This document shows positions 11,096 through 44,609 of a stretch of DNA of 64,000 bases, one piece after another. How positions within the stretch are numbered: position 1 is the stretch's first letter; each line of letters starts with the position of its first letter. The notes beneath the pieces were generated by a model. It saw nothing but the letters and a program-made list of their open reading frames with translations. It was not told the DNA's origin and made no database searches. The translations under genes and the position numbers were made by a program. This stretch comes from Vibrio diabolicus. Lineage in GTDB: Bacteria; Pseudomonadota; Gammaproteobacteria; Enterobacterales; Vibrionaceae. The stretch is taken from contig CCKK01000016.1 of the NCBI GenBank assembly GCA_001048675.1, positions 1 to 64,000 on the forward strand, given 5' to 3'.

Positions 11096-12736
11096 TTAAC
11101 TTGTTTGTGTTATCGGTTCGAGCCTGCCCTTCAACTTCTCACTATCCTCCCCATGACCAGTAATATCATTCGCTTGCACTGGTGTTTTGGTACTTGCTCG
11201 TCCTGGTGCTACACCGCTGTGTGTATGCGTTGCTAAAGTGTCGGCCAATTCTTTAACCACCTGCATTAACTCCGATAAAAGAATCAACACATTCTCTTGC
11301 TTAGAGCCTATCCAAGTCTTTGGTGACTGCAGCCATTGATGCTCAGCGGCAATACTTCGGCGAATTTTTCCGATGGTCTCAATCAGTTCGCCAGCGGTAG
11401 CCGTTTGCATGTTACCCAAGCTTCCTAACACCAGATCATCTCCTGACAACAAATTAATAGCGCCAAGCGCTTCAATAAGCTTCTTACCATTCACTTCTTC
11501 AGTGCTGTGCTCATTTACAAAAAGCTGATGCTGGCCAAACTCACCTTTATACCGTTCAAATTGGTCTAACTTACCAAACGCTCTCTGATTTTGAGTTTGG
11601 TCAGTCTGCAGTGTTGTATTTCCTGCGGCATCGACTCGATAACTCACTTCTTCACGTTGCTGTTGTAGTTGTTCACCAGGCTCTATTGAGGGAAGCGCAT
11701 ATTCACGTCCATAAACGCCACGTATGATGGGTCTATCGCTTCGACCATAAGCGAAAGCAATTTCAACCAATGTCCCTTCTAATGGATACGCTAACAATCC
11801 GGACTCATGTCCGCTCATGTTAACCGGCAGTGGAATCGAGCGATAAACCGGTACGTTACTATCTGGTTGCAAATTCTCATCTAGAACTTGCACATCAACA
11901 GAGAGTCTTGGCCGAAATGGGTCAGATACTTTACCCGCCGTCGCACTGTCTCTGACCGTTTCGACTCGCCCGAACTTTGGCAAGTGAAAGCCCGCAGCTA
12001 ATTCAGGAAAATGCTGTAGTGTTTCTCGCTTTTTAGGTATGACTTCAGACTGCTCAGCTTTCCAATATGCGGTCATATCATCCTGTATTAAGTCAACCCG
12101 ATTAACTCGCTTACCATTCACAACACGACCTGGTCTAAGCATAGGAAACGGAACAAAGGTGACACTGTTACCATTTTGACGACTCGTAAACTCTTCAGGT
12201 AGTGGCATTGGTTTGCCGTTGAAATGGCTATCTTGATAGGAGCCAAAGTAAACTACCTGGTCAGTATGTTGAAACCAAACACAGTCAGGAATAGAAAAAG
12301 CCTTAGCGACCTGATCTAAACATTGATAACCCGTTCCCTGGCAAACAAAGTTTGGGATCGCGGTCTTCATGTATTCTTTATTAGGCAGATTAAACTCAAG
12401 ACCAGTAAGGTGAGAGAGCGCATCAATAACTTGCTCGGCATTTGGATGCTCTAAGCTGAGAGACCAACGTTTACTCAAAATACCTGTCAGTTCTTTTACT
12501 GTGATTTTTTGGTAGCCATTGACTGTAGATTGGATTTTATCAACATAGCCCTCAAACCAAGGCGACGTTTTGTTTTCATATCCAATATCAAAACGCACCG
12601 GCTCGAATAATTTCAGGGGTTGCGTTGCTTCAATTTCAAAGATGGCCACACTACCCAAAGAAAGCTTTAAGCTCACCATGTTACTTGCCAATTTGACTTC
12701 TTCGCCGCTTATATACAAGCGCTTCTCTAACTTCAT
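11096..12736 (-). CDS. Baseplate hub-spike fusion (gpD/gpV-like, VgrG-like)
   Basis: A 546-residue protein at the end of the tail operon. Residues about 1-330 resemble a gpD/gp27-type hub; an OB-fold region follows (LAYPLEGTLVEIAFAYGRSDRPIIRGVYG, about 330-365), then a helical linker. The C-terminus contains THTHSGV, the His-x-His pattern that binds iron at the tip of gpV-type membrane-piercing spikes. Hub and spike in one chain is the VgrG arrangement; P2 uses separate D and V genes. It overlaps the upstream gene by 4 bp. Confidence 0.75.
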   Translation of the reverse strand: MKLEKRLYISGEEVKLASNMVSLKLSLGSVAIFEIEATQPLKLFEPVRFDIGYENKTSPWFEGYVDKIQSTVNGYQKITVKELTGILSKRWSLSLEHPNAEQVIDALSHLTGLEFNLPNKEYMKTAIPNFVCQGTGYQCLDQVAKAFSIPDCVWFQHTDQVVYFGSYQDSHFNGKPMPLPEEFTSRQNGNSVTFVPFPMLRPGRVVNGKRVNRVDLIQDDMTAYWKAEQSEVIPKKRETLQHFPELAAGFHLPKFGRVETVRDSATAGKVSDPFRPRLSVDVQVLDENLQPDSNVPVYRSIPLPVNMSGHESGLLAYPLEGTLVEIAFAYGRSDRPIIRGVYGREYALPSIEPGEQLQQQREEVSYRVDAAGNTTLQTDQTQNQRAFGKLDQFERYKGEFGQHQLFVNEHSTEEVNGKKLIEALGAINLLSGDDLVLGSLGNMQTATAGELIETIGKIRRSIAAEHQWLQSPKTWIGSKQENVLILLSELMQVVKELADTLATHTHSGVAPGRASTKTPVQANDITGHGEDSEKLKGRLEPITQTS

Positions 12737-28466: not shown

Positions 28467-30254
28467 ATGGCATATTCTCCCGAAATACGACAAGCCGCCC
28501 GAGCACTCTATTTGAAAGCTTGGACGCCACGTGAAATCGCTACCGAACTGAACCTGAATAATGAGCGCATCATTTATTACTGGGCAGACAAATTCGGTTG
28601 GCGCGATATGTTGCGTGAACAAACCATTGATGAAGCGATAGCAAATCGAATTCAAACACTGCTTGAACTTGTTGACCCCAGTAAAAACCAACTAGACATG
28701 CTCGATCGGCTTATCAAGCATCACGCTGCATTAAAGAAACAAAGGGCACAAGAAAAGCAGCAAGGTGAGCAACCTTTAAATACAGGGAATAAAAAGCACG
28801 ACGGTACAAATAGCCGTAACAGCCAGAAATCTAGCAGTAATTCAAAATCTACCAAGAAACGTAAAAGTAAAAAGAATGACATCAGCGAACTGAGTGAAGA
28901 TGACTTTGTCACATGGCATGACTCCCTGTTTGCCTATCAGCATGTAATGCGCAACAACATAAAACAGCGTATTCGAAACATTCTTAAGTCCCGCCAGATT
29001 GGCGCAACTTACTACTTCAGTGGTGAAGCGTTAGAAGATGCGATTCTGACCGGCGATAACCAGATCTTTTTGTCAGCATCACGAGCTCAAGCGGAAGTTT
29101 TCCGCAGCTACATCATTGCTATTGCAAAAGAGTTCTTAGACATAGAGCTAACTGGAAACCCGATCATTCTCTCCAATGGTGCTGAACTTCGTTTTTTATC
29201 TACCAATAGCAAAACCGCGCAAAGTTACCACGGCCATGTTTATGTTGATGAGTATTTCTGGATACCGAAGTTTGACGAACTAAACAAACTCGCTTCGGCA
29301 ATGGCTACCCATAAAAAATGGCGTAAAACCTACTTTTCGACACCATCATCGAAAATGCACCAGGCATATCCGTTTTGGACGGGCGACCAATGGCGAAAAG
29401 GCAGAGACTCACGCGCCAAAATTGAGTTTCCAACGTTCGATGAATATCGCGATGGGGGTGTACTTTGCCCTGATAAGCAGTGGCGATATGTCGTCACGAT
29501 TGAAGACGCTGCAGCAGGCGGCTGTGAACTATTTGATATTGAAGAACTGAAGGACGAATACAGTAAAGACGATTTCGATAACCTGTTTATGTGTATCTTC
29601 GTCGACGGCTCTTTGTCTGTATTCAAATTCTCTGACCTCGAAAAAGGCATGGTTGACTCTGCCCACTGGCAGGACTTCAAGCCGAAAACAAAATCACCGT
29701 TTGCCGGGCGTGAAGTATGGTTGGGTTATGACCCTAGCCGAACGCGAGACAATGCTTGTTTGGTAGTAATAGCTCCACCGGCAGTTGCAGGTGAAAAGTT
29801 TCGTGTCTTAGAGAAGCACTACTGGAAAGGGCTTAACTTCCAGTACCACGTGAGTGAAATTGAAAAGGTATTTCAACGCTACAAAGTCACTTACATAGGC
29901 GTTGATACTACAGGCATTGGTGGCGGTGTTTGGGACTTAATTAAGAAAAAGCACCCTCGTGAGGCCCACGCCATACATTACAGCAACGAAAACAAGAATC
30001 GCCTAGTAATGAAGATGATCGATATCGTAGAAGCAAAACGACTGCAGTTTGATGCCGAACACAAAGACATTGCTATGGCATTTATGGCGATTAAACGAGT
30101 GCCGACCAATAGCGGTAACGCTATGACCTTTAAAGCAGAGCGAAGTGAAACAACAGGCCACGCTGATGCGTTTTGGGCCATGTCACACGCCATTATCAAT
30201 GAGCCGCTAGACCACAACACACCAACGAAATCAACCTGGGCGACTGCAGCATGA
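28467..30254 (+). CDS. Large terminase subunit, ATPase (gpP-like)
   Basis: A 595-residue packaging motor. The N-terminus has a helix-turn-helix DNA-binding domain ([31 protein letters not shown]). A basic low-complexity linker (about residues 95-140) is followed by the ATPase ([16 protein letters not shown] as Walker A-like, [11 protein letters not shown] as Walker B) and a nuclease-type end ([34 protein letters not shown]). The ATG at 28467 is preferred because the family begins at that helix-turn-helix; the open frame extends to 28272. The stop overlaps the portal start. Confidence 0.92.
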
Positions 30255-31282
30255 ACAATCAAAAAGAAAAACTAGTACAACAGGAGCAACATGCGGAGTC
30301 TGTTTATCACCTTGACTCTACGCCTGAAGCAATTGACTCAACCAGTTGGATGACTTCATATTCTGAGCTTTTCTATAACGACACTGATGGTTACTGGGAA
30401 CCACCAATCTCACGCCAGGGCTTAGCAGAAACTTCTCGTGCAAACGCCTATCACGGGTCTTTACTTAAAGCTCGAGCAAATTATGTTGCTGCCCGTTTTA
30501 TTTCAGGTGGCGGTTCAAGACGTCGGCAGATTCAATCTTTTTGTAATAACTACTTCACGTTTGGTGATGCCGCATTTTTAAAAATCCGAGACCACTTCAA
30601 GCGTGTTGTACGCTTGTTTCCTCTACCGACCATGTATCTGCGTAGACGTAAAAATGGGGACTTCGTTTTGCTAGAGCGAGACAACAAGCAACGAGTGTAC
30701 AAAGAGAATGACATCATTTTTTTGCCTCAAGAAGACCTGCAACAGCAAGTTTATGGCCTACCTGATTACCTAGGTAGTTTACAAAGCAGCTTACTAAATC
30801 GAGATGCAACGCTATTTCGTCGTCGCTATTACAAGAACGGTGCACACATGGGATTCATTTTTTACGCCACGGATCCAAACCTTAGTGATGACGACGAACA
30901 AATGCTGAAGGAAAAAATCGCGAGCTCCAAAGGGGTGGGTAACTTTAGAAGTATGTTTGTTAATATTCCAGGCGGTGCAGAAAAAGGGATTCAGCTAATC
31001 CCGGTGGGCGATATAGCAACAAAAGATGAATTTGAGCGAATCAAAAACATCACTGCGCAAGACATTCTCGTAGGGCATCGCTTCCCCATAGGAAAAGCAG
31101 GAATCATTCCCCAGGGAACGACTAATCTGGGTGACCCCGTCAAAATTGGCAGTGAGTATGCCAAAGACGAAATCATCCCCGTATGCGAACTAATTATGGA
31201 TGAAGTTAACAACGATCCCGAGATAAAAAATATCAAAAATCTACATTTAAAATTTGATACTACGTTTGGAGAAAGCCCATAA
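30251..31282 (+). CDS. Portal protein (gpQ-like)
   Basis: A 343-residue connector protein of the P2 gpQ/PBSX portal family. Visible motifs are [44 protein letters not shown], and [32 protein letters not shown], with [22 protein letters not shown] near the end. It forms the dodecameric portal. Its start overlaps the terminase stop by 4 bp. P-Q order is inverted relative to P2 (Q, then P on the other strand) only through numbering of the strand. Confidence 0.92.
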
Positions 31283-31284
31283 AC

Positions 31285-31300
31285 CTGTACAAAAACACAG
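31285..31300. promoter_or_regulatory. Weak LexA-box-like sequence before ogr
   Basis: CTGTACAAAAACACAG has the CTGT-N8-ACAG frame of an SOS box, but the centre is a poor dyad and the flanks do not match. It lies 47 bp before the Ogr-type gene. Confidence 0.25.
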
Positions 31301-31347
31301 CCTTTTGACGTATCATTATTTGGTCAGTCAATAAGTTAGGTGCTTGT

Positions 31348-31599
31348 ATGAGAGTATTGTGTCCGGAGTGTGGTTGTAAAAGCCGAATTCAAAAATCCAA
31401 TCGACTATCCAATAGTCATGCCGATTTATATTGCAGTTGTAGTGACCCAGAATGCGGGCATAGTTTTGTGATGAACTTGTCTTATAGTCATACTTTAAGC
31501 CCATCGGCAAAAACAACTAGTCAAATGGCTTTTGATTTATGTAAGGCGTTGCCGCCAGAGGCACGACAACAGCTCAAACATCAACTCTCGATACTATAG
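31348..31599 (+). CDS. ogr: Ogr/Delta-type late transcription activator
   Basis: An 83-residue zinc-finger activator. The Cys pattern CPEC..(about 22)..CSDPEC and the family sequence GHSFVMNLSYSHTLSPS identify the P2 Ogr/P4 Delta family, which binds upstream of late promoters and contacts the RNA polymerase alpha subunit. It follows the portal gene. Its end overlaps that of the leftward 77-aa gene by 6 bp. Confidence 0.92.
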   Translation: MRVLCPECGCKSRIQKSNRLSNSHADLYCSCSDPECGHSFVMNLSYSHTLSPSAKTTSQMAFDLCKALPPEARQQLKHQLSIL

Positions 31600-31827
31600 T
31601 GAATCTTGTATAAACGCCGTGCTATCTACTTCAGAAGCCATCTCGACAATGCTCAAGATGGCTTTTTGTTTTTCGGAGTCCAACTGCCCTTTTGTATCAG
31701 CCAGTATTAAGCCAGCAATATATGCACCTGCCGCTCTAGTCCTCTCTGTTGCCTCACTATTAGCCACACCATCAATGACGATTTCTAAAGCAGACAACAA
31801 GATATCGTTTTGATTTTTATTCGACAT
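31594..31827 (-). CDS. LexA-boxed 77-aa protein, possible antirepressor
   Basis: A 77-residue acidic, helical protein (MSNKNQNDILLSALEIVIDGVAN..STAFIQDSL) with no recognised domain. The ATG at 31827 is chosen for its AAGGGTG site; the longer open frame would run through the LexA box. A near-perfect SOS box lies 32 bp upstream. The phage repressor looks like that of coliphage 186, which is not cleaved on DNA damage and needs the LexA-controlled antirepressor Tum. This gene is the best candidate for such a role, though it does not resemble Tum in sequence as far as can be judged. Confidence 0.7.
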   Translation of the reverse strand: MSNKNQNDILLSALEIVIDGVANSEATERTRAAGAYIAGLILADTKGQLDSEKQKAILSIVEMASEVDSTAFIQDSL

Positions 31828-31858
31828 ATCAACACCCTTACCAATCATCAGTGAAATA

Positions 31859-31878
31859 TACTGTATATCCATACAGTT
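31859..31878. promoter_or_regulatory. LexA (SOS) box before the 77-aa gene
   Basis: TACTGTATATCCATACAGTT contains CTGT-N8-ACAG, with an almost perfect dyad (CTGTAT/ATACAG). It is placed to cover the promoter of the leftward 77-aa gene. Confidence 0.85.
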
Positions 31879-31879
31879 T

Positions 31880-32396
31880 TCCACACTGGTTTTTAGATAC
31901 AATTCACTCATTAAAAAACTTTGTATCAATAGGCATATGCAAAGCTCTAATCAAAACCAAGAAAAAATCATCATCGACCAGCGTCAAAATAGCTCTATTA
32001 GCACACTCAATAGCTGACTAAAAAATTGGCTTAAATTTAGCATATGAAATGCTGCAGTATAGATTTCTGATTCTTAAATATCTTTTTCAGTAATAAGAAT
32101 TACAGCACTCGTACTGACGTCAGTACTCATGTTCAAACAAAATTTTAAGCATATTCGTGATAAAAATGCGGCGTGAATCACCAATACAGTGAAACGAGCA
32201 TACGACAATAACAAAACAATGGTAACCAGATCACTCTTGTGCAAAAAATAACCACAAAAATAAAACTACTAATGGATTAATCTCCAACTCAATACGAACC
32301 TGTTTGCATACCCAAATTGTTGGGGTGCAGTTTGAAGTATTAGTTCTCCAGCTAGCGGGTTGTCTTGATATTCACCTAACGATAGGAAATATGGAA
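31880..32396. other. Non-coding cargo-region gap with a 16-bp palindrome
   Basis: About 500 bp, AT-rich, with no credible gene. It contains the perfect palindrome GTACTGACGTCAGTAC (32111-32126), which looks like a dimeric regulator site, and presumably the promoter of the rightward gene starting at 32397. Confidence 0.6.
32111..32126. promoter_or_regulatory. 16-bp perfect palindrome, possible operator
   Basis: GTACTGACGTCAGTAC is self-complementary over 16 bp in a non-coding region between divergent cargo genes. The protein that binds it is unknown. Confidence 0.4.
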
Positions 32397-33215
32397 ATGT
32401 CTAATCTATTAGAAAGAACTAATGCTTGGCTAGAGTACATCAATAGTGCGGAGAACATTTTGTTGCCGCAAACTATTTTTATGAGGCCTAAATCTCTGGC
32501 TATGTTAGAAAGCGATAGCCTGATAGAAAACCCTGCTAATTCAGAGGCTGTTGGTGACTACAGAGCCCAAGCTGAAAAAGCATCAACACCAGGTACTGCT
32601 CCACAGAGCGTGTTTGACGGTATGCAGACAGCCGTTAACATGTGCCGAACGAAGGCTCAATACAATCCTTTAGATCCTGAGGGCAAAGGTGACAAAGCAC
32701 ACTTCATAGAGTTTACTCAGAACATAAGCTCAATGCCTTTTGTGACTTTAGAATGGGCCAATACAACAGAGATCGAACAAAAAAGTCACAATGCAGATGA
32801 CTTAATAAACTCCTTTGTTGATGGTTTTCAGGGTATCGAACAAGGAGATAAAGAGCAGATAGTCGACTCTGTGAAAAATCTAGTTCGCGCAGCATTATCT
32901 TATTCTAGTAAGACACAGAAGCTATCTAATTTTGCTCAAAATCTTTTACAAGTTGACTCTTCGGGCAATGTTGAGTTTTGTCTATATTGCAGCACTTTCC
33001 AAATTTCAGTTGAAGAACATAAAGGCACAATTACTTTCCACTCTAAATACGAACTGTCGCAAGCGATGTATTCTTTGTCACCATCCAACTGGGACTCGGT
33101 TAAAGAGCTTTTTGCCAAAGAGTATAAAGTCACCGTTGAGGACTGGATTAAAGATATGACAACCCCAGTGAAAGAAGGCAGCACTATAAGAGCACTCTGT
33201 CTAGAAGATAGATAA
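32397..33215 (+). CDS. Prophage cargo protein of unknown function
   Basis: A 272-residue soluble protein, not recognised. The start at 32397 (MSNLLERTNAWLEYINSAENILLPQ) has AGGA 8 bp upstream; an ATG two codons earlier is also possible. The protein has a helical middle (DKEQIVDSVKNLVRAALSYSSKTQKLSNFAQNLLQ) and a beta-rich C-terminal part with two close Cys (EFCLYCSTFQISVEE). It stands alone between long non-coding DNA and a strong hairpin, so it is probably an independently expressed conversion gene. Confidence 0.65.
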   Translation: MSNLLERTNAWLEYINSAENILLPQTIFMRPKSLAMLESDSLIENPANSEAVGDYRAQAEKASTPGTAPQSVFDGMQTAVNMCRTKAQYNPLDPEGKGDKAHFIEFTQNISSMPFVTLEWANTTEIEQKSHNADDLINSFVDGFQGIEQGDKEQIVDSVKNLVRAALSYSSKTQKLSNFAQNLLQVDSSGNVEFCLYCSTFQISVEEHKGTITFHSKYELSQAMYSLSPSNWDSVKELFAKEYKVTVEDWIKDMTTPVKEGSTIRALCLEDR

Positions 33216-33829: not shown

Positions 33830-34405
33830 TTAACTGAATGGATCTGTCAGATTAGATGAGAATACAACGCCACCTAGCTCATTTTGTTCGCACAAACTCT
33901 TAAAATGTTCAGTACAATACAGAAAGCTCGCTCCTAGCATCTTTGACTTAAAAACAACCTTTTCTGCAACGTCGCTTTCATTAAATACTAACACCTCTAC
34001 ACCTGCTAAGCTGCCATATTCAATTTTTTGGACGCACTTATCTTCATCTTCTTGCCCAAACTCCAATGGTGTATACAGGTACCATTCCTCTCCTTTATAG
34101 CGAATCGATAAGAACTCGCCTACTTTGCTCAATGGCTCTTTTAAAGATGCATAAGCTTTAGGGGAAAGCACTAAGAAAACCCGTAACCATAAACTGATAT
34201 CAGGAAGTAATGAGTCTTTCTTGAGAACATCTTCAAACTCAATATCTACTTCACCCCATATACTTTTTAAAGAAAAGTTTTCTAATGGCTGCACAACGAT
34301 TTTTTCTATTAAATCTATGTCACCTAACTGCCTAGCTACAGAACTAGGCGTAGTGCTCACGATTTTATATTCATTGTGACAGTCGAAAATTTTATAAACC
34401 GTCAT
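33830..34405 (-). CDS. Imm11/DUF1629-type immunity protein
   Basis: A 191-residue acidic cytoplasmic protein, directly after an AHH nuclease gene and overlapping its stop. Features of the imm11 (DUF1629) family seen: LPDISLWLRVFLVLSPKAYASLKEPLSKVGEFLSI, a WYLYTPLE segment, and the end FLYCTEHFKSLCEQNELGGVVF. Such proteins neutralise the nuclease encoded next to them. Family call is from memory of the pattern; the pairing strongly supports it. Confidence 0.7.
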   Translation of the reverse strand: MTVYKIFDCHNEYKIVSTTPSSVARQLGDIDLIEKIVVQPLENFSLKSIWGEVDIEFEDVLKKDSLLPDISLWLRVFLVLSPKAYASLKEPLSKVGEFLSIRYKGEEWYLYTPLEFGQEDEDKCVQKIEYGSLAGVEVLVFNESDVAEKVVFKSKMLGASFLYCTEHFKSLCEQNELGGVVFSSNLTDPFS

Positions 34406-35154
34406 TAACCTCTCCAGTCCTCATTTTTACTTTCAAGTATGGTCTTAGGGTATGTTCCTTTTTTCAAATGGTTTTTTACTTGAAGGAGAGAGGCTTCAAA
34501 AAGCTGCTTATTAAGGGGGGTTAATGAAAATTTTGACGCGATCCAAGATTCATAGTTATAAGTATGTATTGAACGATGCGCTGGAGAGTCAGGGCTTTCC
34601 CAGTTTAGCTCTACGTTTTTAGCATAATTCATCAACCAAACACCATTTTGGGGAGCATTAATACCTATCCTGTGCATATGCATATTGATTCTTGCTGTTT
34701 CTATATCAGCCTGACGATGTCGCCCTTTACCAGGTATGATATGGTGAGCTTCATGGCTTAAGGTAGGTTGAGGCTCTCCTGCAGCTGTTAGATTATTCGC
34801 AAGCTTTTTAGTCGGGTGGTGCTTCTCTGACAATAGTTCCGACGGTTTCTTATTTAAGTTCTTATCTGTGTAGCTCTTAAGCTTCTCTTCAAGGTCTCTA
34901 ACTTGCGCATGGGCTATAAGCTCTCTTCTTTTAAGCTTCAAGAAGTCATAATCTCTCTGTTCATGGAAAAACCTTTTTGTTTTTTGCTCTTTAGTTTCTC
35001 CTGCTGGCGGAGACTTACGATACTTATCATAAAAGTCCGTCACTAATTGGTCAAAACGATCAAAAGCTAACTCTGCTGCTGTTGGGTTACTAGGACGATT
35101 AGATTTTTTCCCAACACGACTCAAACTATTCTTCATGGCTGCCAACCTAGTCAT
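34405..35154 (-). CDS. AHH-type HNH nuclease toxin
   Basis: A 249-residue protein with a C-terminal AHH nuclease domain: HEAHHIIPGKGRHRQADIETARINMHMHRIGI, then the family's NAPQNGVWL segment and a downstream HRSIHTYNYESW. The conserved Ala-His-His and following His residues form the metal site of this HNH/Endo VII-type nuclease. The N-terminal ~110 residues are basic and helical, and no PAAR, MIX, Rhs or signal peptide is visible. With the immunity gene it forms a toxin-immunity pair carried by the prophage. Confidence 0.8.
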   Translation of the reverse strand: MTRLAAMKNSLSRVGKKSNRPSNPTAAELAFDRFDQLVTDFYDKYRKSPPAGETKEQKTKRFFHEQRDYDFLKLKRRELIAHAQVRDLEEKLKSYTDKNLNKKPSELLSEKHHPTKKLANNLTAAGEPQPTLSHEAHHIIPGKGRHRQADIETARINMHMHRIGINAPQNGVWLMNYAKNVELNWESPDSPAHRSIHTYNYESWIASKFSLTPLNKQLFEASLLQVKNHLKKGTYPKTILESKNEDWRG

Positions 35155-35278: not shown

Positions 35279-36979
35279 CTATGAGTTCACATTGACCCAT
35301 TGACACACTGGAAAAAGCCGCCCTTCGAGATAATCTGCCGTAATGCTATACCAATAAGAAAGCTCACTTTCATCAACTTCCATATGTGGTACAGGTTCAT
35401 GTAATAGTGATTGCCAATAGGACTGATTCTCTTTAAATCGCTGATATTCAGATTGATAGAAGTGGCTCGCGTCTTGTTTTATATCGCTCAGGTCCAGATC
35501 TCTACAATTCAATGACCACCCTCTTGCACCAGCAGCCCAAACCATAAACTTGTCTACTTTATCCTTAGCCAGTTCTCCTTCAAACGTAATGCAGAAGCGA
35601 TTGCTCGTATTCACGTGCACTCCCCTGCTATGTAAGTTCTGACTCAGCTTTTCGGCCTGCTTTTCCAAACGGATGATTCTCTGATAAAGCTTGTTCTGAT
35701 ATTCCTCAGATTTCTGCTGCTTTTTGGCGATCGCTTTGGCCTTGATGGTTTGCTCTTTGGCATTTCGTAGCTTGCGGATTTGCCGCTTAATTGGCTTTTT
35801 CCATTGCTCAAGTTTGTAGCCTAACTCCTTAATTATTGCGGTCATATTGCCAGCTTCAAACGAAGCAAGAGTTTCCCAGGCAGGAGCTCTTGAGCACTTC
35901 GCGATATTGTATCGATTTCCCTTGATTAGCCCTTGGTCAGCATTTTCACCTTTAGCGGCATAACCGACTGCTTTGATAATGTAAGAACCGGCGGCTTTTG
36001 GCTTTTTGATTCGCTCTAATTTCGCAAACCCATGCCCCCATATCTTTTCAAGTCGCTTGGCCCAAGGACTAAAGAGATGCTCTGGTACTGTCCAACGTAG
36101 CAAAATATGAACGTGTGGATTAGGCTCTCCATCTTCATTGGCTGGACACTCGGCTACCCATATGTAATGGAAATCAGCAGGTAAGTTAGTCGGCCCAACA
36201 TCGCTGGGTTGAGCATGTTTAGCAACCTTCTCCTGGGATAAGTCGCAGTACTTTCGTCCACTATCTTTGTCAACTTGGATGGTATGATCCGCAACCCAGC
36301 CGCGTTGATACATTTTCTTTGCGCCATCAAGAAAACGAGAGACTTCTTTACCTATCGTTGTCTCTAAGGTTTTTTCCATCGAGAACTCTTGCTTGGGCTT
36401 TTGTTTAAGATCGCAATACGGCCCGGCTATAACACTGCCCTGGTTCATAGCTTTAACACGCTTACTATCTAAGGTTGGAAACAGCCAGTATTCTCCACCA
36501 ATATCCGTGATTGGTTGGTCAACTTTCTTTTCACCACGCTTAGGATGTACTGTCACCATGTTGCGCTTATAGATTATTGGATGATGCGACCCCATGCTGA
36601 CACACTCACTTCCATCCAACATTCCACCGAATATGGCCATTCGTTGTGCCTTGGTGAAAGTCAGCGTGAGAAAAGTAGAGAAACCACCATGGCAAGCTGC
36701 AGTGTAAGCCCCAGCCTCAAAGATTTTAGAAACAGAACGGGACGTCAACTTTTCCGAGAATCTCTCACCACTGTTTTCCGAAGGCGCAGCACTAGATGGC
36801 GTTTCGGTTACCGCCTGAAACTTATAAGTTTCATTCCAAGACCGGTGCATTAGCTGCATTGAAATAGGAATCTTTTTAGGTTTCGCCTTGTCCTCGTTTT
36901 CCATTCTGATTGAGAATGGCAGGTTTGGAGCGCTCGTTCGTTTCATACAAAGCATCATGGCTGAAGTTGGCGTCGGCAT
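35279..36979 (-). CDS. Rolling-circle replication initiator, HUH endonuclease (gpA-like)
   Basis: A 566-residue Rep protein. The three classical motifs are visible in order: FLTLTF (motif 1), PHVHILLRW (the His-U-His metal site, motif 2), and AGSYIIKAVGYAAKG (motif 3, with the nicking Tyr and a Lys). A long basic coiled-coil region follows (RKLRNAKEQTIKAKAIAKKQQ). It nicks the phage origin, which in P2-type phages usually lies in this gene. The start is uncertain: several Met codons (36979, 36946, 36904) are possible and none has a strong ribosome site. Confidence 0.85.
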   Translation of the reverse strand: MPTPTSAMMLCMKRTSAPNLPFSIRMENEDKAKPKKIPISMQLMHRSWNETYKFQAVTETPSSAAPSENSGERFSEKLTSRSVSKIFEAGAYTAACHGGFSTFLTLTFTKAQRMAIFGGMLDGSECVSMGSHHPIIYKRNMVTVHPKRGEKKVDQPITDIGGEYWLFPTLDSKRVKAMNQGSVIAGPYCDLKQKPKQEFSMEKTLETTIGKEVSRFLDGAKKMYQRGWVADHTIQVDKDSGRKYCDLSQEKVAKHAQPSDVGPTNLPADFHYIWVAECPANEDGEPNPHVHILLRWTVPEHLFSPWAKRLEKIWGHGFAKLERIKKPKAAGSYIIKAVGYAAKGENADQGLIKGNRYNIAKCSRAPAWETLASFEAGNMTAIIKELGYKLEQWKKPIKRQIRKLRNAKEQTIKAKAIAKKQQKSEEYQNKLYQRIIRLEKQAEKLSQNLHSRGVHVNTSNRFCITFEGELAKDKVDKFMVWAAGARGWSLNCRDLDLSDIKQDASHFYQSEYQRFKENQSYWQSLLHEPVPHMEVDESELSYWYSITADYLEGRLFPVCQWVNVNS

Positions 36980-38358: not shown

Positions 38359-38898
38359 TTAGGCTAAGCCTGGAAGTGGCGCACCGTTGGCTAGGAAATC
38401 TGTGCCCATTTGCATGAGTGGCTGAAAGCCGGTGGTGCGGTTTTCTAAATCGTTGACGAACAAAACCAAGTTACCGATGGCCGCTTGAACCTTGGCAATG
38501 GTTTTGCGCTTTTGACTGCGAGGTAAACGGTCTGCACTGCACATGTGCATTGCATCGCTAGACAGCTCACCTGAATATTGGTTGTTAATTAACGTGCGCT
38601 CTAAAAGGTTCTTATCTTCCCCGTCTTGAGGTAACTGAACCGTCACGACACCTAGGTCAGCAAAGAGTGTGTTCACAATGGTGTAATCGCCGGATTCTTT
38701 ACTCAGCAATGCCAAATCCACTGGATCCAGTTTGTGAGGCTGTTCTGGGTTGAGCTTGTTACGCAGCATTCTCCCAGTTAGGCCGATGCGTGGAGCCAGA
38801 TTTTCCATATTATGATTGATAGCGAAGTCGCAGCATGCAGCGTTAAAAGATTGCTGTTTGCGTTCGCGGAATCCGCACATAGCGATATTTGCGTCCAT
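38359..38898 (-). CDS. Phage regulatory protein CII
   Basis: A 179-residue regulator of the 186/CP76 CII type: ACCDFAINHNMENLAPRIGLTGRMLRNKLNPEQPHKLDPVDLALLSKES contains the helix-turn-helix. In 186, CII activates the promoter that establishes lysogeny by making CI. The ATG at 38898 (MDANIAMCGF) is preferred to the start of the open frame at 38961, but its ribosome site is weak. Confidence 0.8.
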   Translation of the reverse strand: MDANIAMCGFRERKQQSFNAACCDFAINHNMENLAPRIGLTGRMLRNKLNPEQPHKLDPVDLALLSKESGDYTIVNTLFADLGVVTVQLPQDGEDKNLLERTLINNQYSGELSSDAMHMCSADRLPRSQKRKTIAKVQAAIGNLVLFVNDLENRTTGFQPLMQMGTDFLANGAPLPGLA

Positions 38899-39008
38899 GA
38901 TCCACACTCTTACATGAAAGGCGGTACGAGAATGACAACCAACGAGAACACATTTAGCCACATTGGGCAGTGCGTTTTAGTTGGAATAAGAGAGGAAAAG
39001 CCCATGAC

Positions 39009-39221
39009 TTACCCAAGCGCAGCAATGGCTTCACGTGCCGCCATTTCGTGCATAGCAACCATGTTAATCAATGGCTTATCGCGGCGTTTGTCTTTTGGTT
39101 TGATGATAACGCGACCTTCAGTCACGTATTGCTTGATGGTGCCCATAGGTAAACCAGTAAGACGGGAGTATTCTTCGTAAGTCACATATGGACTTAGTGG
39201 AGGTATCTTGTACGTTAACAT
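39009..39221 (-). CDS. Cox/Apl-type excisionase and early regulator
   Basis: A 70-residue winged-helix protein (VTYEEYSRLTGLPMGTIKQYVTEGRVIIKPKDKRRDKPLINMVAMHEMAARE), the P2 Cox pattern. Cox proteins direct excision with integrase and repress the cI promoter. The start at 39221 (MLTYKIPPLSP) has AAGG 9 bp upstream; the open frame continues to 39284 through the operator region. It is divergent from cI across 95 bp. Confidence 0.88.
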   Translation of the reverse strand: MLTYKIPPLSPYVTYEEYSRLTGLPMGTIKQYVTEGRVIIKPKDKRRDKPLINMVAMHEMAAREAIAALG

Positions 39222-39283
39222 GGTGATATCCTTGTACTTATGTCTATCTTCTTCGGTTGTCTCTTGCTTTGGTCGGCGTGACA

Positions 39284-39352
39284 ATCAACTTTCGAGTACA
39301 ATATTGATCAACTTATATGGATAGTCAACAAAAAATATCAATTTTCGAGTAC
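39284..39352. promoter_or_regulatory. Lysis-lysogeny operator repeats
   Basis: Direct repeats ATCAACTTTCGAGTAC (39284-39299) and ATCAATTTTCGAGTAC (39337-39352) are 53 bp (about five helical turns) apart, with a third octamer ATCAACTT at 39307-39314. They flank the cI start codon in the cox-cI divergent region, as expected for CI or Cox binding sites. Confidence 0.6.
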
Positions 39353-39985
39353 CTAAAAGGTGAAGACTTTACTCAAACCTTGAAGGATTCTCTAGGGTTA
39401 TCGACATTTGCAGAGTTAGCAGACGTAACGAATGTAAGTCGACAAACAATTAGCACATGGAATGCGCACAATAGGAACTCTCACGAGTTAGTTGTACGTA
39501 TTCATTTGAGGACAGGAATCCCTGTTCACGAGCTAATTCTTCCAAAAGATTACCCTCTGACGGATCTACACCACTCTTTTTGGGGGAATAAAAAAGCGCC
39601 GGAAGCTGAGGTGACTTCATCTAGTCCAGAGTTACAGAACCCTCAGTTAGCTATCGTCGCAATTAAAAGTTTCTGCCTCACGAACGGCCAGCTTGTGCCA
39701 ACTGGAGAGATTCCATACGCACAACGCATGTTCAACTCTTGGGATTTAGAAGCCAGCAACACCATTGAAATCGAGACAAACGATGGCCGCTTTCTGGTAG
39801 ATAAAAAACAGAACGATGCAGTGAGTGGCGAGTATTTGATTGATATGAATGGGCGTCTGTCCATCAACCACATTCAACGATTACCACATAAACTAGCAGT
39901 CGTGTTTGGCAACTCGACGGTTGAAGTATCAGAAGAAGATATAAAAGTGATTGGCCGCGTGGCGGTGACGTTAAGAACGGAATAA
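39317..39985 (+). CDS. 186-type CI repressor
   Basis: A 222-residue repressor that maintains lysogeny. The N-terminus holds a helix-turn-helix (FAELADVTNVSRQTISTWNAHNR). The C-terminal ~80 residues (GRFLVDKKQNDAVSGEYLIDMNG.., ending DIKVIGRVAVTLR) line up well with the oligomerisation domain of coliphage 186 CI. A Ser nucleophile motif and the Lys of LexA-type proteases are not visible (HIQRLP instead of a VKRL-type segment), so RecA-stimulated cleavage is unlikely. The start codon lies between operator repeats and has no clear ribosome site, hinting at a short leader. Confidence 0.88.
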   Translation: MDSQQKISIFEYLKGEDFTQTLKDSLGLSTFAELADVTNVSRQTISTWNAHNRNSHELVVRIHLRTGIPVHELILPKDYPLTDLHHSFWGNKKAPEAEVTSSSPELQNPQLAIVAIKSFCLTNGQLVPTGEIPYAQRMFNSWDLEASNTIEIETNDGRFLVDKKQNDAVSGEYLIDMNGRLSINHIQRLPHKLAVVFGNSTVEVSEEDIKVIGRVAVTLRTE

Positions 39986-40461: not shown

Positions 40462-40640
40462 TTAGCTTAGTTATATACGGAATTACAATTCTCGCCATCA
40501 TAGCTACCGCGATATTTTCTATCTGGACATACGTTGATACTAATCGTAAGTACTCTATGGAAGACTTCACTGAATCAAGAAAAATAAAAAACTTAGAAGC
40601 TGAAAATCGCTTTAAAGACAAAACTAGGTTAGGAAAATGA
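40458..40640 (+). CDS. 60-aa single-span membrane protein
   Basis: A short protein with one membrane helix (SLVIYGITILAIIATAIFSIW) and a charged cytoplasmic tail (DFTESRKIKNLEAENRFKDK). It overlaps the genes on both sides by 4 bp (ATGA), so translation is coupled in a three-gene unit. Unknown function. Confidence 0.68.
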   Translation: MISLVIYGITILAIIATAIFSIWTYVDTNRKYSMEDFTESRKIKNLEAENRFKDKTRLGK

Positions 40641-41552
40641 TCAAAAATTTCATCTATTTAGACGAACAAAAGCTATACTCTTTTTCATCTCAACTTTTTG
40701 AAGGCGTGACAGAGTACTTTTTAAATCAACACGCTTATGAACATGAAGAACAAGAAACTCAAAAAGGAACTATTGCTTCTGGTCGAGCGATTGCAGATGC
40801 CGTAAAAGAAGCATCTAGCTCAACTTCAAAGAAGTTTCTACATGACTACTCTTTCAATCTGTTCGAGTCTGAGTTAACAAAAAATGAATTATTGCTAGAC
40901 ATTAACGATGAAAGTGTTACTCATGAGCAAATCTGCAATTCAGGTAAATCTTTTATTCGAATTCGTTCTAAGGGCAAGTTTGTTGATACCAAAGAGATTC
41001 AAGAGCTATTTAGGCATTTCAATGAGATTGGACGTGCAATTGCTTCTGCTCAGCTTACGCCAGACTTCCAACTGTTAGAAAAGTTGAAAAACGACAAAAA
41101 AAGTAATAAGCAAGCAAATGAACTTCAGCGTCGACTAGAGCAACAAGTAAGACAAATAATATCTGAATCTGAATTGGCACTTCCCAAGACTGTGCTTGAT
41201 GGCCTTGACACTATGATTGAACAATTTGGCGATGAACTTGTACGCTTTCAACAAACCGTCGGAGAAGTAGAGTTTTCTACTTGTATGTCTCCTGATAGCT
41301 TTAGGGACCCAATCAAGGCGATCTGTAAAAAATAACGCAAGAAAAACCGCTAAAGAGTTTGTTGTTTTGGGTACTATTTGTCATTCTCATGATACTCAAG
41401 AAGTAGATATCCAAGGAGCATCGGACAGCGATAGCCTTCAGAAGCACCTAATCGGATTAACTGAAAACTTATACGACCTAGAACAAATGTACGCCTCCAA
41501 AGACGAAAATGAAATAATCATTGAGCCTATAGCAGTTTACACTGAACTCTAA
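40637..41552 (+). pseudogene. DUF6414-like protein, interrupted by a frameshift
   Basis: The first 232 residues (MIKNFIYLDEQKLYSFSSQLFEGVTEYFLN..) match my memory of DUF6414, a family often found near defence genes. The frame stops at 41333-41335 right after a six-A run (41327-41332). Removing one A continues the protein as NNARKTAKEFVVLGTICH.. to 41552, giving about 304 residues, the usual family length. So this is one gene with a +1 base in a homopolymer, either a sequencing error or a real mutation. The middle (about residues 150-200) is a coiled coil. The gene is coupled to the two membrane proteins upstream. Confidence 0.72.
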
Positions 41553-43529: not shown

Positions 43530-43549
43530 TACTGTACATAAAAACAGTA
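43530..43549. promoter_or_regulatory. LexA (SOS) box before integrase
   Basis: TACTGTACATAAAAACAGTA has the full outer consensus TACTG..CAGTA and the CTGT-N8-ACAG frame, 13 bp before the int ATG. It should repress int until DNA damage. Confidence 0.85.
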
Positions 43550-43562
43550 ATGCTATTCCATT

Positions 43563-44609
43563 ATGTCTATCCGAAACACTAAAGACGGCAGTAAAAAACC
43601 TTGGCTTTGTGAGTGCTATCCACAAGGCCGAACTGGTAAACGCGTTCGTAAACGCTTTGCAACTAAAGGCGAAGCTACAGCTTTCGAACTTCACTTAATG
43701 AAAGAGGTAGACGACAAGCCTTGGCTAGGTTCTAAACCTGATCACCGTCGATTATCTGATTTAGTCGAACTATGGTTTAAGCTACATGGTAAGAACCTCA
43801 AGTCTGGTGATCATACTCGTCTGCGTTTAGAAAGCATGGTTTTCGACTTAGACAACCCTATAGCTTCACACCTTAACGCGAAACAACTCGCCACATATCG
43901 CTCTAGTCGTTCCAATAAAGGCAGAGGACAGGAGCATAAAGAGCTTTCCATCGCTTCGAATAATGTGGACTTTGGGTTGCTAAAAGCGATGTTCAATAAG
44001 TTAATAAAGCTTGGTGAATGGAAACTACCGAATCCGGTTGGCGGTATAGAGGCAATAAAAAAGCCAGAGTCCGAACTTGCGTTCCTGACCGAACAAGAGA
44101 TTCATCACCTTTTTGAAGTAGCTCAACAAAGCCCGGTTGGTGATGAGCTAACGAAGATATATAAAGTTTGCCTGGCGACTGGTGCGCGAATCAGAGAAGC
44201 GATTTATCTGAAAGGCACTAACCTGACGAAATACCGCATTACCTACAACAACACCAAAGGCAAACGAAATAGAACGGTACCGATTTCTGAAGAGTTGTAT
44301 AGCCAAATCTATAAGCCAACCAATGACCGTCTTTTCACTTGCGGTTACGGCGTAGCTTACAAATGGCTTACCAAAGCCCTTCCCCACTTACCAGAAGGAC
44401 AAGCGACTCACGTCTTACGTCATACCTTTGCGAGCCACTTTATGACCAATGGCGGCAACATTCTTGTATTAAAGGAAATCCTCGGCCATCAGCATATCGA
44501 TCACACGATGATTTACGCACACTTTTCACCAAACCATTTGAGCGACGCAGTGAGGTTTAATCCGCTTTGCACTCTTAATTTATGCACTCCGCCACAAGCT
44601 AAGCACTGA
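43563..44609 (+). CDS. int: Tyrosine-type phage integrase
   Basis: A 348-residue site-specific recombinase of the P2/186 integrase group. The catalytic residues are visible: Arg in TGARIREAIYL, Lys in TKGKRNRTVPI, the HxxR box in HVLRHTFASH, and the final His and Tyr in LGHQHIDHTMIYAHF. The N-terminal arm-binding domain (SKKPWLCECYPQGRTGKRVRKRFATKGEA) has the usual beta-sheet pattern. It lies about 1.1 kb from attR with a LexA box directly upstream and no clear ribosome site. Confidence 0.95.
   Translation: MSIRNTKDGSKKPWLCECYPQGRTGKRVRKRFATKGEATAFELHLMKEVDDKPWLGSKPDHRRLSDLVELWFKLHGKNLKSGDHTRLRLESMVFDLDNPIASHLNAKQLATYRSSRSNKGRGQEHKELSIASNNVDFGLLKAMFNKLIKLGEWKLPNPVGGIEAIKKPESELAFLTEQEIHHLFEVAQQSPVGDELTKIYKVCLATGARIREAIYLKGTNLTKYRITYNNTKGKRNRTVPISEELYSQIYKPTNDRLFTCGYGVAYKWLTKALPHLPEGQATHVLRHTFASHFMTNGGNILVLKEILGHQHIDHTMIYAHFSPNHLSDAVRFNPLCTLNLCTPPQAKH

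Follow-up and report, generated by a model that had tools for sequence, protein, structure and literature searches.

The 77-aa gene ORF12, at 31594..31827 on the minus strand of the 64-kb stretch of DNA analyzed here (the window), probably encodes a LexA-controlled, Tum-like protein directed against the prophage repressor CI, which is the reading that best explains our comparisons of related loci. This reading is favored by conservation of a LexA box upstream of the gene, the presence of CI in most ORF12 loci, a portal-based sample chosen independently of ORF12, the lack of ORF12 in relatives with an S24 domain, a genomic slot shared with tum, a chromosomal pair consisting of CI and ORF12, and the finding that ORF12 tracks the CI C-terminal domain more closely than the N-terminal domain or ogr. 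An antirepressor role had been proposed in the initial annotation, and this part of the proposal is supported by the box, the slot, the S24 loci and the pair; the accompanying statement that the protein is not a recognised one does not hold.

The window carries a Peduoviridae prophage of the P2 family that is K139/HP1-like. Its 186-type CI repressor, the proposed target, lies at 39317..39985 (plus strand). The genes for a Cox/Apl-like excisionase-repressor (39009..39284, PHROG 575), a CII-like activator (38359..38961, PHROG 101) and a putative replication initiator (35279..36979), so named from where it lies and from its counterparts in the corresponding place of other Vibrio phages, are all on the minus strand and are thus transcribed in the same direction as ORF12. 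The Ogr/Delta late activator (31348..31599, plus strand; Pfam PF04606, E 8.5e-17) is convergent with ORF12, and the portal protein gene (30251..31282, plus strand) forms the other flank of the ORF12 slot. A search of Rfam at gathering scores gave no match in 31200-32500. Elsewhere in the prophage, an AHH-type nuclease gene (34405-35154, Pfam E 1.4e-11) is found beside an Imm11-like gene (33830-34405) whose Pfam match is below the cut-off (E 0.0018), a possible nuclease-immunity cargo, and a DUF6414 protein (E 9.7e-16) is encoded at 40637-41335, in the gene set between CI and the integrase gene.

The initial annotation had described ORF12 as a lone gene whose product was not a recognised protein, but it does not stand alone, and its family is already on record. 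Residues 2-73 match PHROG 5581 (E 6.3e-33), which is listed as function unknown, and matches were found in 20 phage records, among them Vibrio phage K139, whose orf12 product is 63.9% identical. K139 orf12, Kappa KP18 and PHROG 5581 represent the same protein family with the same neighbors as the window gene; the K139 copy is annotated as 81 aa rather than 77, and its LexA box overlaps the annotated putative promoter P12. The phage records give no function, and a literature search whose range did not extend to the two K139 papers returned no described function for ORF12 or K139 orf12. At E<=1e-4, ORF12 was found in 63 of 329 Vibrionaceae genomes, the window's own included, and neither Pfam nor NCBIfam holds a model that matches it. 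A DinI-type RecA modulator was ruled out, as PF06183 (DinI) was absent from the 77-aa protein in the Pfam search. AlphaFold2, supplied with 34 sequences, predicted three helices (residues 3-23, 28-44 and 51-66; mean pLDDT 76.5). Comparison of this fold with BFVD and PDB yielded nothing at E<=0.001, a comparison that is uninformative for so small a bundle, and four matches of the ORF12 profile in a PDB sequence search (E 0.62-0.75) were judged to be chance; the non-significance of the structural matches weakens the anti-CI reading. In L116, a Rha-like regulator (Phage_pRha E 1.2e-30) is encoded at 11749-12417, directly upstream of ORF12.

The LexA (SOS) box that precedes ORF12 lies at 31859..31878 on the strand of the gene (minus), reads AACTGTATGGATATACAGTA and ends 31 bp before the ATG. 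The consensus for LexA boxes is TACTGTATATATATACAGTA, with which AACTGTATGGATATACAGTA agrees at 17 of 20 positions. Using a matrix built from 14 E. coli LexA sites, whose own scores range over 13.8-25.5, we found that this site (score 23.6) is the highest-scoring LexA-like 20-mer in the 64000-base window, bearing out the near-perfect SOS box of the initial annotation. Since the bare CTGT-N8-ACAG core with <=1 mismatch showed no enrichment in the window (18 observed versus 25.3 expected), the case for a LexA box is carried by the full 20-bp score together with its conservation. The suggested check of conservation gave a clear result: of the 108 distinct homologue cores, 98 had a site scoring at least 17 in the preceding 160 bp, compared with 0.6% of 20000 random control windows drawn from the same loci. 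These 108 cores were obtained from 194 matches by merging identical ones and removing one with <60 nt upstream, and the more distant ORF12 copies of L305-L314 are outside these counts. When cores were grouped at ~80% similarity, 36 of 41 clusters had the box, the broken copy L108 being counted twice. The ten boxless cores comprised the broken copy L040, L094, the satellite-like L101-L103 and five distinct sequences belonging to the chromosomal CI-ORF12 pair (see below); the missing box in L094, in L101-L103 and in the chromosomal copies counts against the anti-CI reading. ORF12 of L115 has the box. A promoter scan found a -35/-10 pair overlapping the window's LexA box, with three pairs in total against 3.7 expected by chance. 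On these sequence grounds, LexA would be expected to act at the ORF12 box. The loci L101-L107, which perhaps represent phage satellites, encode CI, Cox, CII and ORF12, with ogr and portal undetected; the box is present in L104-L107 and absent in L101-L103.

The resemblance of the window CI to 186 CI that had been noted in its C-terminal domain was confirmed by a match to the solved 186 CI structure 2fkd (E 1.2e-4) and by Pfam, which identified both Phage_CI_repr and Phage_CI_C. The same Pfam search found no Peptidase_S24 domain, in accord with the earlier view of a repressor that lacks a protease, and because this domain is absent the window CI is likely to be non-cleavable. Among 68 loci chosen for ORF12, our CI model found CI in 61; its absence by the model from the other seven, one of which is a 2.4-kb record, weakens the anti-CI reading. 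Eight further named phages were obtained through their terminase, seven of them from Vibrio. In all seven Vibrio phages (L291, L292, L294-L296, L300 and L301), we found a 186-type CI and a LexA box together with an ORF12 match, whose E values were 1.5e-5 in L291, 0.011 in L296 and far better in the other five; in the eighth, Salinivibrio SMHB1 (L293), the gene behind the box encodes 53 aa and matches ORF12 with an E of just 0.75. The portal-based sample, which is independent of ORF12, gave 38 portal matches in 224 Vibrio genomes, and by hand count 25 of these adjoin an ORF12 of the E<=1e-4 set. Twelve of the remaining 13 were fetched (G255:C44 was left out), two ran off the contig end, and each of the 10 readable loci contained a 186-type CI, a distant ORF12 (E 8.9e-6 to 0.013, with two of them at 0.006 and 0.013) and, in the slot, a LexA box scoring at least 21.4.

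Outside the Vibrionaceae, we examined 46 loci, made up of 40 of 77 portal matches together with PY3, C5a, phiO18P, YenM_324, HP1 and 186, using an S24 model that started from three seeds and was extended with sequences of the 46 loci themselves. An S24 domain was found in 18, in the repressor or, in C5a, in a separate peptidase, and Pfam confirmed it in all three loci checked (PY3, phiO18P and C5a). None of these 18 loci had an ORF12 or Tum match at E<=0.05, a count that ignores relatedness. A 186-type CI without S24 was present in a further 14 loci, again counted without regard to relatedness: L318 has a clear ORF12, 186 and YenM_324 have Tum, and L343 (E 0.01) and L342 (by eye) hold a 54-60-aa gene that resembles Tum behind a LexA box, leaving nine, among them HP1, L332, L333 and L335, with neither ORF12 nor Tum. 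The remaining 14 loci were untypable, including L334, which has a Tum-like match. Thus, ORF12 and Tum were not seen together with S24, yet a 186-type CI is not always paired with one of them, and the nine prophages with neither weaken the anti-CI reading. It is weakened further by the S24 loci L321, L323 and L324, where a LexA site lies in the interval from rep to ogr (with no ORF12-like gene behind it in L323 and L324), and by a weak match of L323 to the CI model as well.

The lack of ORF12 from all 18 S24-bearing relatives would be unexpected for a gene directed at the host, and thus bears on the alternative that ORF12 is an SOS-expressed accessory gene whose product targets a host function (cell division, RecA or DNA replication) while CI is lifted in another way. 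Host-directed phage genes are common neighbors, as exemplified by 186 Fil and Dhr as annotated, and a dinI homologue adjoins a Gifsy LexA box according to passages of PMC3121763; nevertheless, ORF12 has no DinI domain and is found in an isolated pair with CI, and we regard a host target as unlikely.

Pairwise distances among 48 prophages indicated that ORF12 diverges most closely in step with CII (r 0.79), followed by the CI C-terminal domain (0.66), Cox (0.60), the CI N-terminal domain (0.43) and, last, the neighboring ogr (0.26). The correlation with the CI C-terminal domain was 0.64 given ogr and 0.69 in pairs with different replication genes (n=493), and fell to 0.14 (p 0.003) given CII. 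These results show that ORF12 travels with the lysogeny module and that CI is not singled out by covariation. The stronger correlation with CII, which remains at 0.58 after control for the CI C-terminal domain, weakens the anti-CI reading, lends some weight to a host target for which covariation with CI would be unspecific, and is the main point in favor of the proposal that ORF12 acts on another early regulator, such as CII or Cox, leaving CI untouched. A well-conserved CII may simply trace phage lineage, which would be enough alone for the correlation, and the chromosomal pairs keep CI and ORF12, with no cox or CII in L096 and L109-L111; we therefore consider action on CII or Cox to be quite improbable. 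Still less probable is regulation of the convergent ogr, or of late transcription, by the protein or through antisense overlap. In the window, the 3' ends of ORF12 and ogr share 6 bp, and many loci have the two genes convergent and close together, but they diverge rather independently (the correlation is 0.12 given the CI C-terminal domain), and several loci have an ogr at a distance of more than 1 kb, an ogr on the strand of ORF12 or no ogr that was found.

Individual comparisons showed how loosely ORF12 and CI can be coupled. The window and L062 have identical ORF12 proteins and CI proteins that differ by 49% in the N-terminal and 33% in the C-terminal domain; since Cox is also identical and CII and ogr differ by only 2% and 1%, this looks like an immunity swap through replacement of cI. 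In L050/L052 and L071/L072, ORF12 is identical and the CI N-terminal domain has been swapped (42% and 38% different), with a near-identical C-terminal domain (1% and 3%). The ORF12 proteins of L092 and L095 are 14% apart with CI C-terminal domains that are 69% different, and, conversely, L114 and L116 share CI (0-1% different) with ORF12 proteins that are 35% apart. Identical ORF12 proteins alongside very different CI proteins are a further point in favor of a host target, and together with L092/L095 and L114/L116 they weaken the anti-CI reading. An ORF12 that acts on CI would have to cope with extensive divergence of CI.

In six Vibrio genomes (L096, L109-L111, L222 and L223), among them V. 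ruber and Vibrio sp. MEBiC08052, CI was found with a divergent ORF12 trimmed after helix 2, flanked by two conserved chromosomal genes that by eye are oxidoreductase-like and alcohol dehydrogenase-like. Searches around the pair in four of the six loci (L096 and L109-L111) detected none of the genes cox, CII, rep, ogr and portal, and the pair has no LexA box. The dN/dS ratios pooled over genome pairs (0.082 for CI and 0.122 for ORF12, with 0.126 and 0.031 for the flanking genes) indicate that both CI and the trimmed ORF12 are under purifying selection. This chromosomal pair is the strongest hint that the CI and ORF12 proteins may belong together, and it offers a minimal system for finding out by what means a ~40-residue helical hairpin might inactivate CI.

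In the mechanism that we propose for the prophage, intact LexA bound at 31859-31878 would keep ORF12 silent while CI shuts the lytic promoter. DNA damage would remove LexA, allowing the 77-aa three-helix protein to be made, and ORF12 would then bind CI, most likely at its C-terminal oligomerisation domain, through the conserved helices 1-2. Because CI would thereby be stopped from holding its operators, the early lytic operon could start, and induction would depend on ORF12.

A LexA response may extend beyond ORF12. A second LexA box (43530..43549, plus strand; score 22.5) lies 13 bp ahead of the integrase gene (43563..44609, plus strand; identified by Pfam), and sites scoring at least 17 were present within 130 bp upstream of 45 of 95 distinct related integrase genes (1.0% of control windows), mostly 9-17 bp from the gene; the S24-typed loci L319, L321, L350, L351 and L353 are among those with such a site. 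A weaker LexA-like palindrome (31283..31302, plus strand; score 13.6) precedes ogr, ~45 bp ahead of the Ogr core. Within 130 bp upstream of distinct ogr genes, 43 of 115 had a site scoring at least 17 and 67 of 115 one scoring at least 14 (1.0% and 1.3% of control windows, respectively), and the ligand of this palindrome may be LexA, Ogr itself or CI. If int, and perhaps ogr, belong to the LexA regulon, a single signal would lift repression and set off excision and late transcription at the same time.

More tentatively, ORF12 and CI might constitute a portable two-protein switch, in which one antirepressor family recognises a CI surface shared across very different immunity types and phages swap the CI DNA-binding domain freely while ORF12 is retained. 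Satellite-like elements would then be carriers of the switch, the bare pair would be a chromosomal host regulator untied from SOS, and the phage LexA regulon would also take in int and perhaps ogr. We see this broader scheme as possible rather than probable. Broad tolerance of CI, if real, would mean that one prophage could induce another. The anti-CI reading itself would assign PHROG 5581 a function and add a second sequence family that does the job of Tum, and it gives a testable answer to how K139/Kappa-like phages, which are common in Vibrio and have a repressor without a cleavage domain, respond to DNA damage.

The closest functional precedent is Tum of phage 186, which, according to passages of PMC3121763, binds its repressor and blocks operator binding; inhibition of CI by Tum is likewise stated in a portion of PMC7708051, and an excerpt of PMC12055606 reports that mitomycin C induction of the P2-like DuoHS requires tum. 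As with ORF12, a LexA box is immediately upstream of tum (score 25.8 in 186), tum comes after the replication gene (A) in the direction of the early genes, and the partner CI belongs to the same Pfam families as the window CI. The two differ in that Tum is 146 aa rather than 77, carries a C-terminal DinI domain (PF06183) that ORF12 lacks, and is encoded in a phage whose ogr counterpart, B, is located elsewhere, unlike the ogr beside ORF12. Profile alignments placed helices 1 and 2 of ORF12 in register with those of Tum N-terminal domains, and Tum-type HMMs gave ORF12 proteins a median of 0.2 bits versus -1.9 for other small ORFs (rank test P 5e-30); however, hhalign gave P values of 0.016-0.16 depending on setting and alignment, which are not significant, and none of 84 ORF12 proteins exceeded the best of 420 shuffles with the Tum HMM. 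As the profile comparison is without significance, we propose that ORF12 is Tum-like in action and do not claim it as a Tum by sequence.

Stand-alone Tum N-terminal proteins of ~60 aa (PHROGs 1993, 698, 8554 and 37919) occur in enterobacterial and Yersinia phages. In two Yersinia phages they share the slot of ORF12 between rep and portal, as an annotated 60-aa tum in 06.16-2 and an unannotated Tum-like frame in YenM_324. They form a distinct sequence family, the third helix being ORF12's. In PSP3, whose tum is split, the antirepressor is the upstream half, according to a personal communication quoted in a passage of PMC3121763. A LexA site scoring at least 19.9 was present in all 17 Tum-type loci scanned, a set that leaves aside 80 close Tum relatives. 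Pseudoalteromonas phages ACA1 and ACA2 are stated, in a section of PMC10612066, to encode an S24-like polypeptide of its own alongside a protein homologous to the 186 antirepressor (gp1 in ACA1); as stated, this would be a case of S24 and such an antirepressor together, and it would weaken the anti-CI reading. The first gene of the related phage C5a is not a Tum and corresponds to DUF6173.

Small antirepressors under LexA control were already known, since passages of PMC3121763 describe them for Gifsy prophages and for N15 (AntC), adding that Gifsy repressors stay uncleaved on induction and that Gifsy antirepressors can work across prophages. By description, GfoA, GftA and GfhA of Gifsy, FsoA of Fels-1 and AntC of N15 can be likened to ORF12, but they belong to other phage groups and face other repressors. 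The combination of a LexA-boxed small gene and a non-cleavable repressor seen in the Gifsy/AntC type would also describe the ORF12 locus, judging from the domain content of its CI. In the TF-smORF modules found in plasmid-like phages of Vibrio and Aeromonas, small proteins inactivate CI without cleavage and outside SOS, as set out in a part of PMC10432266. Those modules answer to a divergently encoded activator rather than to SOS, whereas ORF12 has a LexA box and its neighbors are ogr and a cargo gene without a Pfam match, with no divergent transcription factor of the TF-smORF type.
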